From the NCBI GenBank assembly GCA_035461765.1, contig DATHUY010000126.1:1-48593 (forward strand): a DNA stretch of 48,593 nucleotides, in the 5' to 3' direction. Shown here piece by piece: positions 40,460 through 48,593 of the stretch. The notes below the pieces were generated by a model. That model had not been told where the DNA came from. It saw only the letters and a list, made by a program, of their open reading frames with translations, and did no database searches. The stretch's first letter is position 1. Every line of letters begins with the position of its first letter. The stretch comes from Longimicrobiales bacterium. Lineage in GTDB: Bacteria > Gemmatimonadota > Gemmatimonadetes > Longimicrobiales > RSA9. The position numbers and the translations under genes were made by a program.

Positions 40460-41047
40460 TCAGCCGGCGCGTCGCCGCACCGCCGCCACGATCATGTCCA
40501 CCAGCGCTGCGCGGCGTAGAGCGAGCAGGTCCATCTCGTCGTCACCGACGAGATCGTGGGCCCGCAGGATGTTGCGGAGATGGCTCTCATCCAGCGCACC
40601 GAGCTCATCGCGCAGCAGATCCTCTCCCTGGGCGTGGACCTCGAACGGGTTGAGTATGGCATGCGTGGGCTTTACGGCGGCCGCCGCGGTCGCCTTCCCG
40701 GTCGTCGGGGTGGCCGCGCGGGTCGGCTCCCCGGGCGCCGGTCCGTCGTAGGTGGGTCGGGTATCCACGGCCCGCGGGCGCCGATCGGGCACCTCCGGCT
40801 GCATCGCCCGCTCGAGCGCGCCCTCCAGATACGCTTCGGTCAGGCCCGTGGCCCAGTACTCCAGATCGGGCTTGTTCGGCTGCGTCGTCTCACGGGGGGT
40901 GCGCAGGACGGGAGCACCGCTGCCGGGATCGAACTCGATCCAGCCTTCCCACATGTTGTCCGCAGCCTTCCGGCCGCAGACGCGGGCGATGTACGCCCGT
41001 CCATCATCCCCGCTGACGGGGCCTTCGAACTGCACCAGCACCACCAT
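40460..41047 (-). CDS. Uncharacterised protein with C-terminal helical domain
   Basis: 195 residues. GGAGGT lies 6 bases before the ATG; the upstream open frame is not coding-like. The N-terminal 85 residues are beta-rich (VVLVQFEGPVSGDDGRAYIARV, MWEGWIEFDPGSGAPVLRTPRE) ending in YWATGLTEAYLEGALERA. A Pro/Ala/Thr-rich linker follows, then a compact helical C-terminus (NPFEVHAQGEDLLRDELGAL, HLRNILRAHDLV, LRRAALVDMIVAAVRRR). No known domain is recognised. A 119-base gap separates it from the zinc-ribbon protein upstream, with no terminator visible. Confidence 0.78.
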   Translation of the reverse strand: MVVLVQFEGPVSGDDGRAYIARVCGRKAADNMWEGWIEFDPGSGAPVLRTPRETTQPNKPDLEYWATGLTEAYLEGALERAMQPEVPDRRPRAVDTRPTYDGPAPGEPTRAATPTTGKATAAAAVKPTHAILNPFEVHAQGEDLLRDELGALDESHLRNILRAHDLVGDDEMDLLALRRAALVDMIVAAVRRRAG

Positions 41048-41166
41048 GACCGCACCTCCGCAATCGTGAGCCGTCGCGGCGCAGAGCCGCAGATCATCCA
41101 TCTGCGACCCTCGTGCCACCCGCGCCGGCTCAGGCGGTGTGCCGCGGAAGCGCTGGCTGTCGTCCT

Positions 41167-41556
41167 TCAGTCGCCGCTGCCGACGGACGCGAGCGCGATG
41201 TAGTCGGAGTCGCCGACCTGCAGCCGCACCCACTTGCTCCGCGAGCCGCAGCTCGGGCAGTACACGTACTGGTCGTCGATCATCTGCAGATCGACGCGCG
41301 CGTCGCACGCCGGGCACGGCGCGGACACGGTGGGAAAGGCGTCGGGCCGCAAACCGCTCTGCGCCAGGCGCACGCCCATCAGGATACGCGGCAGCCCGAA
41401 CATCGGGCACATCGAGCCGGTACAGCGCGCGCCGAAATCGAGGCAGACGACCTGTGCGTCGGCGAGCGGTGCCTGCCCTTCATGAGCGGGCGCATCGGTG
41501 ATGACGACCCGGACATCCTGGTCGCATGCCGAACAATACGCGGTCTGGCTTTGCAT
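41167..41556 (-). CDS. Small Cys-rich protein with CPMFGLP motif and C-terminal zinc ribbon
   Basis: 129 residues; GAGGAGG precedes the ATG. The N-terminal half (AYCSACDQDVRVVITD, VVCLDFGARCTGSMCPMFGLP) resembles the 71-residue protein encoded just upstream, sharing A-Y-C, V-V/G-C, C-x-G-x2-C-P-x-F-x-L-P. The C-terminal half adds a separate zinc ribbon (APCPACDARVDLQMIDDQYVYC with CPSCGSR) absent from the smaller paralogue. Metal or iron-sulfur binding is likely from the Cys spacing. Function unknown; the position close behind apbE in an Rnf cluster hints at redox-cofactor work (inference). A start 13 codons upstream is possible. Confidence 0.8.
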   Translation of the reverse strand: MQSQTAYCSACDQDVRVVITDAPAHEGQAPLADAQVVCLDFGARCTGSMCPMFGLPRILMGVRLAQSGLRPDAFPTVSAPCPACDARVDLQMIDDQYVYCPSCGSRSKWVRLQVGDSDYIALASVGSGD

Positions 41557-41576
41557 GCTGTCCTCCTCTGTGAACG

Positions 41577-41792
41577 TCACCTGCGCCCGAACCATTCCAC
41601 TCTCAACATTGCTCCGTCCATCGGCAGATCGAACAGCGGACAGCGAATGCCGAGACACTCCTCCGCGTGCTCGCGGCACACGATGCCCGGGATCACCACG
41701 TTCTCCGGATCCGTCTCGTCATACAGGACGGGCCGGACGTACACGTGAACGATACGCTCGAGGGCGTCGCAGTATGCCAGGTGCGTCTCCAT
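41577..41792 (-). CDS. 71-residue Cys-containing protein with CPLFDLP motif
   Basis: It begins METHLAYCDALERIVHV and ends AMLRVEWFGRR. The core IVCREHAEECLGIRCPLFDLP aligns with VVCLDFGARCTGSMCPMFGLP in the next gene, so the two are paralogues. Four Cys residues (at AYC, IVC, EEC, IRC) could bind a metal; the first C-x2-C of the larger protein is reduced to a single Cys here. The start lies 14 bases after the apbE stop, and the gene ends 20 bases before the next one, so it is in the apbE operon. No family is known to me. Confidence 0.75.
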   Translation of the reverse strand: METHLAYCDALERIVHVYVRPVLYDETDPENVVIPGIVCREHAEECLGIRCPLFDLPMDGAMLRVEWFGRR

Positions 41793-41806
41793 CCGTGCCG
41801 GCCCTT

Positions 41807-42796
41807 TCAGCCAGATCCGACGATCTCCGCATCCCCGCCCACCCCACGCAGTACGGCAATGGCATCGTGCGCATTGCGGCTGAACACCGCCGTCGCCGCG
41901 GCATCGGCACACATGCACGTGCTGGCGGCGACCGTGAGCGAGTGTACGTTCGTCTCGCGTGGCGCGCCGGTGGCCGGATCCAGCAGATGGTGGTACCGGC
42001 GGCCTGCATGATCGAAGTACTGCTCGTAATCACCGGATGTAGCGACCGCGCGATCGCGCAGCATGATCGTTCCGGACAGGCGGGTCGGGTCGTCCGGCGA
42101 GCGGATACCGACACTCCAGCCGTCCGCGTCCAGCGGACTGCCGAGCGCGTACAGGTCGCCGCCCACGTTCACGAGACCGTCCGTCACGCCCCAGGTGCGC
42201 AGCGCCGCCACAGCGCGATCGACGCCATACCCCTTTGCGATGCCGCCGAGATCGAGCGCGACATCACGGTCGCGGTACCGCACGACATCGCTGCCGCGGA
42301 ATCGATCCACCTCGATGTGCCGGTGCAGCCTGCGGCCGGCCAGGCGTCGCACCGCGCCCGCCGCCGGCGGTGCGTTGCGCTGCGTCACATCCCACAGCTC
42401 CGTCACCCGGCCGAGCGCCGGATCGAAGCTGCCGCCCGCGACACCTGCCCAGCGCAGAGCTGCCGTGATCACGGCAGCGGTGCTCGCGTCAATGGCGACC
42501 GGGCCGGCATGTGCCGACACGTTCGCACGACCGATGTCGGAGTCCGCGCGGAACCGCGACATCAGACGCTCGACCCTGTACAGCTCATCCGCCGCCGCCG
42601 TCATTGCTGCATGGCCTGCGCGCTCGTCGCGCGTCACCACTATCAGCTCCGCCGTGGTGCCCATCACCGGTACGGTGCGTCGCACTACGCGCCGTCGCGC
42701 GACACCCACCCCGAGGGTGGAGACCACGAACGCGCCCGCGCCGAGCACCAGGAACTGACGGCGCGACGGTCCGCGTGCATCATCATGCTGTGTCAT
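41807..42796 (-). CDS. apbE: FAD:protein FMN transferase (ApbE)
   Basis: 329 residues. The start overlaps the stop of the small Cys-rich gene (ATGA). A twin-arginine-type leader (SRRQFLVLGAGAFVVSTLGVG) would export it, matching the periplasmic location of its targets. ApbE motifs are present: VPVMGTTAELIV, VERLMSRFRADSDIG, DLGGIAKGYGVDRAV, LVNVGGDLYALG, ATSGDYEQYF and HHLLDPATGAP. It attaches FMN through a phosphoester bond to a Thr in the RnfG and RnfD subunits, both encoded in the same operon, so it is a dedicated maturation enzyme. Confidence 0.93.
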   Translation of the reverse strand: MTQHDDARGPSRRQFLVLGAGAFVVSTLGVGVARRRVVRRTVPVMGTTAELIVVTRDERAGHAAMTAAADELYRVERLMSRFRADSDIGRANVSAHAGPVAIDASTAAVITAALRWAGVAGGSFDPALGRVTELWDVTQRNAPPAAGAVRRLAGRRLHRHIEVDRFRGSDVVRYRDRDVALDLGGIAKGYGVDRAVAALRTWGVTDGLVNVGGDLYALGSPLDADGWSVGIRSPDDPTRLSGTIMLRDRAVATSGDYEQYFDHAGRRYHHLLDPATGAPRETNVHSLTVAASTCMCADAAATAVFSRNAHDAIAVLRGVGGDAEIVGSG

Positions 42797-42924
42797 TTGT
42801 GCTCCCCGCGCTCGCACACCGCGCCGCACGCCCCGCAGTCATGGCTGCAGCCGCCGCGTGTCCTGAGTGCCGCGGCCAGACCGAACAGCGCCGCGAATCC
42901 GATGAGTGAGAGTATGATCGTCAT
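42793..42924 (-). CDS. 43-residue membrane protein with four-Cys tail, possible NqrM-like Rnf maturation factor
   Basis: An ATG 7 bases after the rnfA stop opens one membrane helix (IILSLIGFAALFGLAAAL), an RTR positive-inside stop, and a tail with C26, C30, C33 and C37 (CSHDCGACGAVC). The stop overlaps the apbE start by 4 bases, so it is embedded between the two. The architecture (one helix, short tail, four Cys) recalls NqrM (DUF539), needed to assemble the membrane iron centre of the related Na+-NQR, but the Cys spacing differs and homology is not shown. FeoB-associated Cys-rich proteins are an alternative resemblance. It may deliver iron or a cluster to RnfA/RnfE (inference). Confidence 0.75.
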   Translation of the reverse strand: MTIILSLIGFAALFGLAAALRTRGGCSHDCGACGAVCERGEHK

Positions 42925-42931
42925 GCCTGCC

Positions 42932-43507
42932 TCATGAGCTGAACAGCCCGGCGAACCCCATGAATGCCAGCGAGAGAGTGCCGGCAATGATCAGTACGAC
43001 GCCCATCCCGCGCGCCAGATCCGGCACGCTCGCGAGCTCCGTCTGCTCGCGGATTGACGCCATGAGCACGAGCGCGAGCGTCAGCCCGAGCCCCGCACCA
43101 ATCGCGAAGAACATCCCCTGTGCGAAGTTGTAGCCGCGGTTCGTCTGGAAGATCGCAAGCCCCAGTATCGCGCAGTTCGTCGTGATCAGCGGCAGGTAGA
43201 TGCCCAGCTCCCGGAACAGCACCGGACTGACTTTCCTGATCGTCATCTCCACGATCTGCACGAGCGACGCGATCACGACAATGAAGGAGATCAGTCGCAG
43301 GTAGGGTGCTTCGGCAAGGATGAAGCGGTTGAGGAACCATGCCGCAAACGCCGTCAGCACGAGCACGAAGATGTTGGCGGCACCCATGCGCAGGGCGGTC
43401 GACACGCGACCGGACACACCCATGAACGGGCACAGCCCCAGGAACAGCGCCAGGGTGAAGTTGTTGACGACCATCGCCGAGATCAGGATCCATAGCAGGT
43501 CGTTCAT
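42932..43507 (-). CDS. rnfA: Rnf electron-transport complex subunit A
   Basis: 191 residues, six membrane helices. The inverted-topology twin of RnfE, with C26 in ALFLGLCPFMGVS and C112 in LITTNCAILGLA; each protein contributes two Cys to the intramembrane [2Fe-2S] centre at their interface. Length and motifs match RnfA/RsxA/NqrE closely (VNNFTLALFLG, GLGLTLALVLMASIRE). It overlaps rnfE by 4 bases. Confidence 0.96.
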   Translation of the reverse strand: MNDLLWILISAMVVNNFTLALFLGLCPFMGVSGRVSTALRMGAANIFVLVLTAFAAWFLNRFILAEAPYLRLISFIVVIASLVQIVEMTIRKVSPVLFRELGIYLPLITTNCAILGLAIFQTNRGYNFAQGMFFAIGAGLGLTLALVLMASIREQTELASVPDLARGMGVVLIIAGTLSLAFMGFAGLFSS

Positions 43508-44190
43508 CGTTCACCTCCAGCGACCACGGGAGTCCGCGCCGGCGTCTGTACCGCCGCCTGATGCAGCCAGCGCCTCGGCTGCGGCCGCTTCACACCGCGC
43601 TGCGAGCGCCACGACAGCACGAGCAGCAGGATCCCCAGCGTGAAGAAGCCGCCCGGCGGCAGGATCATGATGATCCACGGCTCGAACTGCGTTCCCATCA
43701 CGTTGATACCGAGCAGCGTGCCGTTCCCGAGCAGCTCACGGAATCCGCTCATGAGAAGAAGTGCGATCAGGAACCCCGTGCCGGTGCCCATCGCGTCGAG
43801 CGCGGAACGGCCGACTGTGTTGCGCGACGAGAACGCTTCCTGGCGACCGAGGATCATGCAGTTCACCACGATAAGCGCGATAAAGGCGCCGAGCGCCTTG
43901 TGGATGTCGGGCACGATAGCCGCCAGCAGCATGTCCACGATCGTGACGAACGTTGCGATGATCAGGATGTAGGCGGTGATCCGGACTTCCGCCGGGATCA
44001 GCCTGCGCAGGCTGGACACGAGCACGCTCGAGCCGAGCAGCACGAAGAACGTAGCGAGCCCCATGGCCAGGCCGTTCGCCAGACTGTTAGTCACGGCGAG
44101 CGCCGGACACAGCCCGAGCATCTGCACGAGCACCGGGTTCTCACGCCAGACACCGCGCAGCAGGTCCTGCTGCGGCGTGGTCGCTCTCAT
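43504..44190 (-). CDS. rnfE: Rnf electron-transport complex subunit E
   Basis: 228 residues, six membrane helices. The start is set by the 4-base overlap with rnfG; the long open frame before it is shadow. Cluster ligands are C28 in VQMLGLCPALAVTNS and C111 in ALIVVNCMILGRQEAF. The C-terminal tail (about 35 residues after the last helix, Arg-rich then Ala/Pro-rich) is cytoplasmic or disordered. Pairs with RnfA to carry electrons across the membrane through the shared iron-sulfur centre. Confidence 0.96.
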   Translation of the reverse strand: MRATTPQQDLLRGVWRENPVLVQMLGLCPALAVTNSLANGLAMGLATFFVLLGSSVLVSSLRRLIPAEVRITAYILIIATFVTIVDMLLAAIVPDIHKALGAFIALIVVNCMILGRQEAFSSRNTVGRSALDAMGTGTGFLIALLLMSGFRELLGNGTLLGINVMGTQFEPWIIMILPPGGFFTLGILLLVLSWRSQRGVKRPQPRRWLHQAAVQTPARTPVVAGGER

Positions 44191-44846
44191 TGTGCGCCTC
44201 CAGCCTGTTCCAGCAGCAGCGGCCGCATCTTCTCGATGCGGCGGTTTATGATGCCGATCACCGCACGCGATGAGATCGTAGCACCCGTGATCGTTTCCAC
44301 CTCGGTATCGTCGCCCGATCCGCTGCCGGGCTTGATCGGCTCGAGCGGAGCACGCGCTCCGTCGAACAGCGCGACCCACGCGGAGTCCTTCACGATCTTG
44401 TCGCCGAGCCCCGGTGTTTCCTTGTTGTCCAGCACGCGCATCCCGAGTACCTGCTGCGTAACCGGGTCGTAGCCGAACATGACGTTGATCAGGTCCTGGA
44501 AGCCGGGCTCCGCGGCCAGCAGCGCGTAGCCGATCGTGCGGCCGCTGTCGTCGTAGCCCGTCCACACGCGCTCCAGCTTCAGCGTGTCGAGCCCGGCAGG
44601 AGGTGTCGGTGTCAGTGCGCCATCGACCACGTAGAGCGTCGTGGTGCGCGCGGGTGCGTGCAGTACTTCGTCGACCGCAGCCGCGATCACGCGTGCCTGG
44701 TTCGTCAGGATGCGCGGCTCCGCCCACTGATGGACCGTGACGATGAGCAGTCCCGCGATCGCGCCCGCTGCCGCCAGCGTAGCGACCAGACGCCAGGACT
44801 TCGTCCCTTCCCTGCCCTGGCCTGCGGTGCCCGGCGAGTCGCTCAT
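44187..44846 (-). CDS. rnfG: Rnf electron-transport complex subunit G (covalent flavoprotein)
   Basis: 219 residues. One N-terminal membrane helix (LVATLAAAGAIAGLLIVTVH) and an extracytoplasmic FMN-binding domain. The flavinylation motif is TITGATISS with acceptor T190, the site modified by ApbE. DNKETPGLGDKI is the other conserved block of the family. It receives electrons from RnfD or the RnfA/E centre in the chain. It overlaps both neighbours by 4 bases. Confidence 0.95.
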   Translation of the reverse strand: MSDSPGTAGQGREGTKSWRLVATLAAAGAIAGLLIVTVHQWAEPRILTNQARVIAAAVDEVLHAPARTTTLYVVDGALTPTPPAGLDTLKLERVWTGYDDSGRTIGYALLAAEPGFQDLINVMFGYDPVTQQVLGMRVLDNKETPGLGDKIVKDSAWVALFDGARAPLEPIKPGSGSGDDTEVETITGATISSRAVIGIINRRIEKMRPLLLEQAGGAQ

Positions 44847-45886
44847 GCGCGCCTCCCGCGCGGCACCGTGCCGAACACACGCGGCCGCGTGAACCGGTTG
44901 ATGAACGGGACCATCGCGTTCATGAGCAGGATCGCGTACATCACGCCTTCAGGCAGACCGCCCCACGTGCGGATCAGCACGACCAGGGCGCCAATGCCCG
45001 CGCCGAAGATCCACGCGCCCAGGCGCGTCACCGGTGACGTCACCATGTCGGTCGCCATGTAGACCGCCCCGAGGACCAGTCCGCCGGAGAACAGCATGAA
45101 CAGCGGATCCGGGTAGCGGGCGGGATCGATGAGCCGGAGGATGCCGGCCAGCGCAGCAACCGTCGCGAAGATGCTGACGGGGATGCGCCAGTCGAGGTAG
45201 CGCTTCCACGCCAGGTATCCACCGCACAGCAGGATCAGCAGTGCGGATGTCTCACCGAGTGAGCCGCCGGTGTTGCCCATGAGCAGCGGCATCAGGTCGG
45301 TGCCGGTCTGCTCGAATTTCATGAGTCCGAGCGGTGTCGCCGCAGTCACTACGTCGGGTGCATTACCGCTCATCAGCGGCAGTGCGAAGTTGTCGCCGCG
45401 CAGGTCAAAGAGTCCCGCGCCCGCGACGGGCCATGTCGTGATCGCCGCGGGGAACGCCGCCTGGAGGAACGCACGGCCGACGAGCGCCGGGTTGAACACG
45501 TTCTGGCCGAGGCCGCCGAAGATGATCTTGCCGAAACCGATCGCCACAACGCCGCCGACGAACGGCATCCAGAGCGGCATGCCGGCGGGCAGGATCAGTC
45601 CGAGCAGCAGTCCCGTGATCAGTGCCGAGCCATCACGCAGCGTGCTGCGCGGCCCGGACAGGCGTTCCGTGATGAGAGCACCGGCCACCGCCGCGGAGAT
45701 GACGAGCAGTGCGCTGATCCCGAAGAAGACCACGGCCGCACCCACGATCGGCATCAGTGAAGCCACGACCGTCCACATGATGCGCATGGTGGAATCCGCG
45801 GAGTGCACGTGCGGCGAGGCCGAGAGCTCGAGGCGCGGCGCGTCGGTGTGGAACGCGGCAGGTGTCTGCGTCGGAGTCATGCTCAT
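44843..45886 (-). CDS. rnfD: Rnf electron-transport complex subunit D (covalent flavoprotein, membrane core)
   Basis: 347 residues with about nine to ten membrane helices. Motifs: SPHVHSADSTMRIMWTVV, LRDGSALITGLLLGLILPAG, FGGLGQNVFNPALVGRAF, VYMATDMVTSPVTRLGAWIF and FINRFTRPRVFG. The covalent FMN site reads VVTAATPLGL, with T184 as the expected acceptor; most family members have Ser/Thr-Gly-Ala-Thr or Ser-Ala-Thr, so the Ala at the second position is a variant. An N-terminal extension of about 20 residues is Pro/Thr-rich. The start overlaps the rnfC stop by 4 bases. Forms the ion-translocating core with RnfA, E and G. Confidence 0.95.
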   Translation of the reverse strand: MSMTPTQTPAAFHTDAPRLELSASPHVHSADSTMRIMWTVVASLMPIVGAAVVFFGISALLVISAAVAGALITERLSGPRSTLRDGSALITGLLLGLILPAGMPLWMPFVGGVVAIGFGKIIFGGLGQNVFNPALVGRAFLQAAFPAAITTWPVAGAGLFDLRGDNFALPLMSGNAPDVVTAATPLGLMKFEQTGTDLMPLLMGNTGGSLGETSALLILLCGGYLAWKRYLDWRIPVSIFATVAALAGILRLIDPARYPDPLFMLFSGGLVLGAVYMATDMVTSPVTRLGAWIFGAGIGALVVLIRTWGGLPEGVMYAILLMNAMVPFINRFTRPRVFGTVPRGRRA

Positions 45887-47199
45887 GCGACCTTCGGCTT
45901 CCGGCGCAGCGCCGACTTGCTGAGCGCAAACATCTGCGACAGCGGGATGCCGGACGGGCAGACGTAGGAGCACGAGCCGCACAGCATGCAGTCGGCCAGA
46001 TTCCACTCCTGCATCTCGTCATAGCGGCCGAGCTGCGCCAGCGCGCCGAGCTGCTGCGGCATCAGGAACACCGGACACGCGTCCACGCACCGGCCGCACC
46101 GGATGCAGGGCAGCGTCTCCCGCTGCGCCGTCTCCTCGTGGGTCAGCACTACGATGCCCGTCGTACCCTTGGTCAGCGGCGTGTCCAGGTCCGCCTGCAC
46201 CATGCCCATCATCGGGCCGCCGAACACGATCTCCGCGGCGCGCTCATTGATGCCGCCGCAGAAGTCGAGCACATCGCGCAAGCGTGTCCCGACCGGGACG
46301 ATCAGGTTGGACGGACGGTTCACACCGCGACCGGTCACGGTCACGATGCGCTCGATCAGCGGCAGGCCCGTCTCGAAGACTTCTGCGATCGCGGCGATCG
46401 TGCCGACATTCTGCACCACGGCCCCGACGTGCACCGGCAGCTTGCCGGACGGCACCTCACGGCCGGTCACGGCGTGGATCAGCATCTTCTCCGCGCCCTG
46501 CGGATACTTGACTGTCAGTGATTCCACGGTGATGTCGAGATCCGTGGGAATCGTGGCGCGGAGCGCCGCGACGGCGTCCGGCTTGTTGGCCTCGACACCG
46601 ATTACGGCGCGCTCCACACCGAGTGCTCGCATCATGATGCGCGCACCGAAATGCACGCGCTCCGGATACTCGACCATCACGCGATGGTCGGTCGTCAGGT
46701 ACGGTTCGCACTCCGCACCGTTCAGAATCAGCGTTTCGACCTTCGTGTCTTTCGGCGGTGCCATCTTCACGTGCGCCGGGAACGCAGCCCCGCCGAGTCC
46801 GACCACACCGGCCTCCTGCACGGCGCGCGCGACCTCGTCGCCCTCCAGCGACTCCCACTCCGGCACCATGCGCGGGCGCGGCAGCTGGGCCGAGTGGCGT
46901 TCGACAGCGATATGCACCGCCTCGACCATGCTGCCGTCCGGATGCGGGCACCAGTCGATGCCCGTCACGACACCGGCGGCGCTCGCGTGCATGGGCACCG
47001 ACATGTAACCGTCCGCCGCCGCGACCTTGTCGCCGCGCTCCACACGGTCGCCACGCTCCACCAGCGGAACCGCCGGCTTGCCGGCGTGCTGGCGCAGCGG
47101 CAGCACGATCTCGCGCGGGAACGGCATCCGGCGCACCGGCACTGCTGCCGTCAACTCCTTCCGCTCGGGCGGATGGACACCATGTCGAAATCCGCTCAT
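45883..47199 (-). CDS. rnfC: Rnf electron-transport complex subunit C (NADH/flavin/iron-sulfur subunit)
   Basis: 438 residues. The start at MSGFRHGVHPPERKEL matches the usual N-terminus (TFxxGxHPxExK); the frame stays open 38 codons further upstream through the inverted repeat but is not conserved-looking. Features in order: barrel-sandwich/biotinyl-like N-domain (MPFPREIVLPLRQHAGKPA), Rossmann-like flavin/NADH region (VGLGGAAFPAHVKM, LILNGAECEPYLTTDHRVM), SLBB domain, and two [4Fe-4S] motifs, CIRCGRCVDACPVF and CMLCGSCSYVCPSGIP. It exchanges electrons with NAD(H). Its weak GGGG ribosome site lies at the base of the hairpin upstream, so folding could limit its translation. Confidence 0.95.
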   Translation of the reverse strand: MSGFRHGVHPPERKELTAAVPVRRMPFPREIVLPLRQHAGKPAVPLVERGDRVERGDKVAAADGYMSVPMHASAAGVVTGIDWCPHPDGSMVEAVHIAVERHSAQLPRPRMVPEWESLEGDEVARAVQEAGVVGLGGAAFPAHVKMAPPKDTKVETLILNGAECEPYLTTDHRVMVEYPERVHFGARIMMRALGVERAVIGVEANKPDAVAALRATIPTDLDITVESLTVKYPQGAEKMLIHAVTGREVPSGKLPVHVGAVVQNVGTIAAIAEVFETGLPLIERIVTVTGRGVNRPSNLIVPVGTRLRDVLDFCGGINERAAEIVFGGPMMGMVQADLDTPLTKGTTGIVVLTHEETAQRETLPCIRCGRCVDACPVFLMPQQLGALAQLGRYDEMQEWNLADCMLCGSCSYVCPSGIPLSQMFALSKSALRRKPKVA

Positions 47200-47203
47200 C
47201 GGC

Positions 47204-47339
47204 CCCGGACCAGGCTTCGGTTTGCAGTTATGGCCGAGGCCGACATGGCCATACGGCCCGAACCCGCGCATTCCGGCTGCGGCGCGGGACATTCCCCGGT
47301 CAGGATCGGCCATAACCGCAGACCGAAGCCTGGTCCGGG
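47204..47339 (-). repeat. 136-bp imperfect inverted repeat filling the gap between the PFOR-like gene and rnfC
   Basis: The 33-base arms 47204-47236 and 47307-47339 are reverse complements with only two mismatches (both would be G-U pairs in RNA on at least one strand). Arm core: CCCGGACCAGGCTTCGG. The 70-base interior holds further stems: CCCGCGC/GCGCGGG (47263-47269 with 47282-47288) and GGCC/GGCC (47238-47241 with 47247-47250). The minus-strand transcript would form a long stem topped by two hairpins. It starts 2 bases after the PFOR-like stop and ends at the rnfC ribosome site. It could be a transcription attenuator, an mRNA processing or stability element tuning subunit ratios, or a REP/MITE-like insertion. 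Confidence 0.85.
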
Positions 47340-47341
47340 AA

Positions 47342-48593
47342 TCAATTGAACGGCTTCGCGCGCTCGATCCACTTCGCCAGATCCTTCTCGTTCGGGTTGA
47401 GCGGCGTTCCCGGATGGATCAGGCCGGCCGGGCACCGCTCCGCCGCCTGCACCAGCTGCGCGAACGTTCCCGCACGCGCGTCCTTGATGTACGCCTGCTT
47501 GTTGTCGTCGTAGGCGAACATCTTTCCGTTCAGGTTCGTGCATTCGTTGCACGTCGTGCAGCGATCGGTGTCGATGTACGGCTCCAGGGCCATGTCATCA
47601 TCGGCATCCTCCACCGCGGGCGCCGCGGCGGGAGCTGCCGTCGCCGCTGCGACAGCACCGTTGCCGGCGACGGGAGGTGCGGTGGCGGCGGCCATGACAC
47701 TGCCGTCGGCAGTGCCAGCCTGCTGGACAGGCATCCCTGCCGCCGCCGTCACCGCAGAGCCGTTTGGCCCGGTCGGTATCCCCAGCACATCGGCGCCGAT
47801 CGGCTCGACGTGCATGCGACCCGCCTCGGCCACGATCTCGGAGATCGTACGTCCCGCGTTGCCGCGCATGAGCGACTCCGCCATGCGCCGTGCCACCACG
47901 CGCGGGTAGGTCGACTTGAGCTCCGCAATGCGCTGCTCGAACTCCGCCGTCATGGCGGCGATGCGCGCGTCGTATTCCGCTTCGAGGGACTGCGTGATCG
48001 TGTCCCGCACCGTCTGGGGCACCACCACACCCGCCATCTCGCGCAGCTGGCCCCACAGCATGAGGCGCTCCTGCGCCAGCGTGACGATCTCCTCCGCGAC
48101 ACTGAGCCGGCGCAGGTGACCCTCACGATCGACCGCGTGCACGAACGGCGTCTTGCCCTCGCGCTCGTCCGCGCCGAGCTGGAGGTACTCGTGGAACACC
48201 ACCATGTCCTCGTTCCAGCTGTCGGCCGGCACGTCGCGGAAATGCTTGCGGAAGCGCGCCTCCGTGGCCGCCCAGTCCGCAATCGTCAGCGGCAGCTCCA
48301 GCTCGTGCGTGCCGCTGTCGTCCGTGTAGCTGAGCTTGTACATCGGCCACAGATCGTCGACCGCCGGGTTGCCCTCCAGCGACAGGCACTCGGTCATGCT
48401 CGTGCCCGCGTCGGGATCGTACGTGAGATACGGGAATGCGCGGCTCTCGAGTGCGAGGCGTGCGCCGTGCGGCGCCCACTCGTCCGGCAGGCCGTGCTCC
48501 ACGGGGCACGGCGTGTAGATGCTGAACACGGCCGGGCGACGCGAGTTGAGGCCCTTGATCACGCCCCCGATCAGGTGCGTTGCCGAGGCCTGC
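47342..48593 (-). CDS. C-terminal part of a pyruvate:ferredoxin-oxidoreductase-like protein with fused ferredoxin domain (5' end beyond window)
   Basis: 417 residues visible, frame open to the window edge. The first about 75 residues (ATHLIGGVIKGLNSRRPAVF, YTPCPVEHGLPDEWAP, LALESRAFPYLTYDPDAG) match the TPP-binding domain of PFOR-type 2-oxoacid oxidoreductases, in which a C-P/I-x-H-G motif and a W/F-P-L-x-R/T-Y-D-P motif recur. A middle region (PLTIADWAATEARFRKHF and onward) is followed by a helical coiled-coil stretch (LEAEYDARIAAMTAEFEQR, IAELKSTYPRVVARRMAESL). A long Ala/Pro/Gly linker then leads to a ferredoxin-like domain, CTTCNECTNLNGKMFAYDD with the fourth ligand in ERCPAGLIHPG, for one [4Fe-4S] cluster. 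The first Met in frame is internal. It is first in order before rnfC, so it may feed electrons directly to Rnf. Confidence 0.82.
   Translation of the reverse strand, partial: QASATHLIGGVIKGLNSRRPAVFSIYTPCPVEHGLPDEWAPHGARLALESRAFPYLTYDPDAGTSMTECLSLEGNPAVDDLWPMYKLSYTDDSGTHELELPLTIADWAATEARFRKHFRDVPADSWNEDMVVFHEYLQLGADEREGKTPFVHAVDREGHLRRLSVAEEIVTLAQERLMLWGQLREMAGVVVPQTVRDTITQSLEAEYDARIAAMTAEFEQRIAELKSTYPRVVARRMAESLMRGNAGRTISEIVAEAGRMHVEPIGADVLGIPTGPNGSAVTAAAGMPVQQAGTADGSVMAAATAPPVAGNGAVAAATAAPAAAPAVEDADDDMALEPYIDTDRCTTCNECTNLNGKMFAYDDNKQAYIKDARAGTFAQLVQAAERCPAGLIHPGTPLNPNEKDLAKWIERAKPFN

Follow-up and report, generated by a model that had tools for sequence, protein, structure and literature searches.

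A complete Rnf operon, conserved in Gemmatimonadota, with a ferredoxin-tailed PFOR-like gene between rnfB and rnfC

The Rnf gene cluster at the right edge of the stretch of DNA analyzed here raises the question of whether an Rnf complex could take up electrons through a ferredoxin domain tethered to a 2-oxoacid oxidoreductase rather than through RnfB, which is the electron entry point and ferredoxin acceptor of Rnf (PMC12174285). This stretch, the window, comprises all 48,593 bases of contig C126, one of the 171 contigs of its genome. Read along the minus strand from the right edge, it encodes the C-terminal 416 of the 1705 amino acids of a PFOR-like 2-oxoacid oxidoreductase (47342-48593), followed by rnfC (438 aa, 45883-47199, start taken at MSGFRHGV), rnfD (347 aa, 44843-45886), rnfG (219 aa, 44187-44846), rnfE (228 aa, 43504-44190), rnfA (191 aa, 42932-43507), a 43-aa Cys-rich membrane protein (42793-42924), and apbE, a flavin transferase of 329 aa (41807-42796). 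These genes are spaced by 4-base overlaps or short gaps, and our reading of the window's open reading frames, together with domain matches, bears out both the order and the tight packing described in the original prediction. No rnfB is visible inside the window alone, which favors the central claim of that prediction, namely an Rnf without RnfB that uses the tethered ferredoxin of the PFOR as its electron entry point.

The window shows no rnfB because contig C126 ends there. A search of the whole genome for rnfB, set beforehand as the refuting test of this claim, returned a single match to PF04060, the RnfB FeS domain, on the 6209-base contig C46. C46 begins with exactly the 141 bases with which C126 ends, and an end-to-end contig overlap search for the window end found no second overlap. 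An exact overlap of this kind looks like the k-mer overlap between neighboring contigs of a de Bruijn assembly. Across the join, the PFOR-like gene continues to its start at C46 position 4007, where a TGATG junction connects it to rnfB (280 aa) directly upstream; the end of a further gene, which we call X, overlaps the start of rnfB through a junction of the same type. The far end of C46 in turn shares 141 identical bases with contig C55, which adds korB and korA. The joined order C55-C46-C126 is korA-korB-X-rnfB-PFOR-rnfC-rnfD-rnfG-rnfE-rnfA-small Cys protein-apbE, and the Rnf gene set is complete, with all six subunits. The apparent lack of rnfB was an artefact of the contig end, and the PFOR-like gene, taken to lead the cluster, is preceded by korA, korB, X and rnfB. 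Nor have the small Cys gene and apbE taken over places vacated by rnfB, since rnfB-C-D-G-E-A is itself a known order, cited for Bacteroidetes and Chlorobi (PMC3534657). The case carries a caution: a gene that is absent at a contig end is not thereby absent from the genome.

All six Rnf subunits exceed their Pfam cut-offs. By the stricter comparison of NCBIfam bit scores with cut-offs, RnfB (69.5 against 68.7), RnfC (528 against 246), RnfD (320 against 207) and RnfE (231 against 213) pass, and RnfG (95.1 against 102) and RnfA (227.1 against 229.3) fall slightly below. RnfB matches PF04060 with 50.8 bits, is also above the cut-off for Fer4, and has a hydrophobic N-terminus, read from its sequence, as expected of an N-terminal membrane helix. 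Both RnfA and RnfE carry, in their translations, the LGLCP and NC motifs with the cysteines for the intramembrane [2Fe-2S] center. RnfG has an FMN_bind domain and a flavinylation-type TGAT motif, which reads TGATIS in the translation.

We then asked whether this order holds among relatives. It is uninterrupted in three of them (G006, G007 and G036), occupies a single contig in G004, where it was read in two adjacent parts, and is found in two pieces in G001, which belongs to the same genus, and in G002. Because relatives show the order on unbroken contigs, it is not an artefact of our contig join. The G004 contig (C381; loci L027 and L028) carries two adjacent Rnf sets, one with korAB-X-PFOR and the other a minimal rnfB-C-D-G-E-A-apbE set without PFOR. 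Across 61 genomes, a strong RnfD match goes together with a strong rnfB match, G032 excepted. That genome has an RnfD-like match and no rnfB, but its A, D and E genes are distant and NQR-like, so we do not count it as an Rnf without RnfB.

Searching species genomes with the PFOR C-terminus yielded 80 loci from other genomes, most of them titled Gemmatimonadetes or Gemmatimonadota and some Planctomycetota, Acidobacteriota, Deltaproteobacteria or others, titles that may be wrong for metagenome-assembled genomes (MAGs). The order korA-korB-X-rnfB-PFOR-rnfCDGEA recurs in most loci of sufficient length, and the PFOR gene and its neighboring Rnf genes overlap or almost touch in most loci. An Rnf cluster lacking rnfB is not what the relatives conserve: rnfB lies directly upstream of the PFOR gene in 50 of the 56 loci that extend at least 1 kb upstream of it (48 identified by script, and L057 and L113 by inspection). 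Two loci that might have passed for rnfB-less, L081 and L107, have PFOR matches that begin only at residues 736 and 1164, respectively, and an X-rnfB-PFOR N-terminus is found elsewhere in the same genome, so they appear to reflect assembly breaks or rearrangement. At four loci (L070, L087, L092 and L093) no Rnf genes lie beside PFOR; three of these genomes have rnfB elsewhere, the exception being that of L070, a MAG titled Dehalococcoidia that may be incomplete, in which a search for PF04060 found no match. Locus L070 itself reads korB-X-PFOR, with the ferredoxin tail and neither rnfB nor rnfC nearby. Of the rnfB genes located elsewhere, those of two acidobacterial genomes adjoin another ferredoxin-tailed PFOR: at L116 and L122, both from MAGs titled Acidobacteriota, this second tailed PFOR stands directly upstream of rnfB and is followed by a further PFOR-like gene, a different arrangement of the same parts. 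A locus titled Deltaproteobacteria (L102) has rnfB-PFOR-rnfCDGEA with korAB-X absent within 16 kb. The operon is thus widely conserved in Gemmatimonadota and present in some loci filed under other phyla. It is apparently undescribed, as a literature search that lay outside most subscription journals found no paper describing it.

Given rnfB on C46, adjacent to the PFOR gene just past the contig end, and rnfB in the loci of relatives, including all those relatives whose RnfD match is strong and of the Rnf type, an Rnf without RnfB is ruled out for practical purposes, and we assign that reading a negligible probability.

What, then, is the tail of the PFOR-like enzyme for? The 1705-aa protein has POR_N, POR, PFOR_II, TPP-binding and 4Fe-4S domains, all above their Pfam cut-offs, which place it in the 2-oxoacid oxidoreductase superfamily. 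Its score against the NifJ/PFOR equivalog model TIGR02176 is 384.5 bits against a cut-off of 911.35. We therefore call it PFOR-like, and pyruvate is uncertain as its substrate because the score is so far below the cut-off. As had been predicted, the protein ends in a ferredoxin domain on a long linker, which domain and sequence matches confirm. The single-[4Fe-4S] domain lies at residues ~1628-1682, within the last 83 aa (47345-47593, minus strand), fits single-cluster ferredoxin models and matches Desulfovibrio ferredoxin I with an E value of 7e-7. The flexible, 50-110 residue linker before it abounds in Ala, Gly and Pro and varies in length among loci, with a median of ~75 residues by a rough rule. 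Of 78 loci, 77 retain all four cysteines of the tail, and a contig end cuts off the remaining one; the median identity to the window protein is 71% for the tail as against 65% for the PFOR core. Since its cysteines and sequence are conserved, to the same degree as the catalytic core, while the linker varies, the tail is under selection.

The tail is retained at all four loci where PFOR has no Rnf neighbor, so it is neither a substitute for RnfB nor a device for Rnf only; the most fitting view is of an electron carrier that belongs to this class of PFOR. Nor need it replace soluble ferredoxin, as originally proposed, because the ferredoxin search of the genome found an FdxA-like 7Fe ferredoxin. 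These same observations lend weight to an explanation in which the tail delivers electrons generally, to other redox enzymes or to soluble ferredoxin, and the operon merely co-regulates enzymes of anaerobic metabolism with no contact between PFOR and Rnf. The four loci without an Rnf neighbor, one of them in the MAG with no PF04060 match, and the encoded FdxA-like ferredoxin are both consistent with it. However, the PFOR gene is flanked by rnfB and rnfC within the Rnf order, and in most loci the genes overlap or almost touch, an arrangement tighter than co-regulation requires, and we place general delivery somewhat short of an even chance.

Upstream of rnfB, KorA (alpha) scores 523.6 bits against the TIGR03710 cut-off of 482.75, and KorB (beta) scores 237.7 bits against 261.9 for TIGR02177. 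The C-terminal domain of 2-oxoglutarate dehydrogenase (OGDH) also finds a match in this genome, so KorAB is not the sole candidate for 2-oxoglutarate oxidation, and the cluster therefore probably serves particular conditions. With this OGDH domain available for oxidative flux, and with Rnf being reversible (PMC12174285), the cluster might instead run mainly in reverse, such that Rnf, driven by NADH and the ion-motive force, reduces the tethered ferredoxin, and PFOR and KorAB carboxylate acyl-CoA; we consider this unlikely. Between korB and rnfB lies gene X, whose 335-aa product is encoded upstream of the window's right edge (C46:4846-5853 in locus L003, minus strand). Orthologs of X occur in 48 loci with a median identity of ~38%, and X has no match among Pfam, NCBIfam or PDB sequences. 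The homolog from L035 gives a confident predicted model (pLDDT 89, pTM 0.83), which matches no PDB fold at E <= 0.001. X is thus a conserved protein without a known family or solved fold.

At the other end of the cluster, most loci have the small Cys protein encoded in the rnfA-apbE gap. Although it resembles the FeoB_associated family (PF12669), this likeness is weak: 15 of 24 small Cys proteins match PF12669 weakly, with a best E value of 2e-5, and the window protein scores 10.6 bits against a gathering cut-off of 27. With no match to Pfam NqrM and only this weak one to PF12669, we do not identify it as NqrM; an NqrM-like sequence composed as a positive control matched nothing and was disregarded. 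NqrM is needed for the intramembrane [2Fe-2S] center of NQR, and the role of ApbE is flavinylation (PMC12174285). By analogy, the small Cys membrane protein may help to assemble the iron-sulfur center of RnfA and RnfE. The gap between the PFOR gene and rnfC is filled by an imperfect inverted repeat with 41-nt arms that are 88% complementary (47204-47339, no strand). An Rfam search of positions 41000-48593 found no match. Because partial copies of the repeat occur on contigs C12, C83 and C149, and because a same-genus relative lacks it at this place, where the gap is ~20 bases, it probably represents a REP-like insertion in this species.

Taken together, this is a complete Rnf operon with a tailed PFOR between rnfB and rnfC and with KorAB and X upstream, into which electrons from 2-oxoacids in all likelihood enter via RnfB. 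The conserved gene neighborhood points strongly to a coupling of 2-oxoacid oxidation with Rnf. Of the original proposal, this coupling and the tethered ferredoxin survive and the replacement of RnfB is refuted, as rnfB is present; direct wiring of 2-oxoacid oxidation to ion pumping is a hypothesis. Given the known roles of RnfB and ApbE (PMC12174285), we infer the substrates, the direction of electron flow and the docking of the tail on RnfB as follows. PFOR and KorAB would oxidize 2-oxoacids, perhaps pyruvate-like and 2-oxoglutarate-like ones, to acyl-CoA, with ferredoxin taking up the low-potential electrons. In PFOR, the final carrier would be the single-[4Fe-4S] domain, which would shuttle, still tethered, to RnfB, and KorAB would reach RnfB by way of free ferredoxin. 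From RnfB, electrons would travel through RnfAE-G-D-C to NAD+ with pumping of Na+ or H+. ApbE would attach FMN to RnfG and RnfD, and the small Cys protein probably aids assembly of the iron-sulfur center. A bolder version, in which Rnf includes PFOR as a peripheral subunit whose tail docks on RnfB, 2-oxoacid oxidation drives the ion pump inside a single assembly without free ferredoxin, and X helps to hold KorAB, PFOR and RnfB together, strikes us as rather doubtful. If PFOR and Rnf do work together physically, they would form a respiratory unit that channels 2-oxoacid electrons to an ion pump, which would explain how Gemmatimonadota, a phylum that is widespread but has seldom been cultured, could conserve energy when oxygen is low. 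Two further proteins of interest emerge from the cluster: a conserved one that has neither a known family nor a known fold, and a likely Rnf assembly factor.

Several known systems share features with this operon. The B-C-D-G-E-A order with apbE behind it is shared with the rnfBCDGEA type of Bacteroidetes and Chlorobi, as cited in PMC3534657; here, in contrast, a 5-kb PFOR-like gene stands between rnfB and rnfC, and korAB and X lie upstream. The small Cys protein shares with the NqrM/FeoB-associated Cys-rich proteins (PF12669) its small size, its membrane location, its Cys cluster and a gene position beside pump genes and apbE, but it adjoins Rnf genes rather than FeoB or NQR. As in the PFOR/NifJ enzymes of Desulfovibrio africanus (1b0p) and Moorella (6cin), the PFOR-like protein has POR_N, PFOR_II, POR, 4Fe-4S and TPP-binding domains in one chain, whereas it is ~1700 aa long, as compared to 1170-1230 aa, and has an extra C-terminal single-cluster ferredoxin. 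The pyruvate:NADP+ oxidoreductase of Euglena likewise joins a PFOR and a C-terminal electron-acceptor module in one chain; that module is flavodoxin/cytochrome P450-reductase-like, and the one here is a ferredoxin. Finally, the tail has the single-[4Fe-4S] fold of Desulfovibrio ferredoxin I (1dax/1fxr), which is a free protein, whereas the tail is tethered and carries a conserved extension at its C-terminus.
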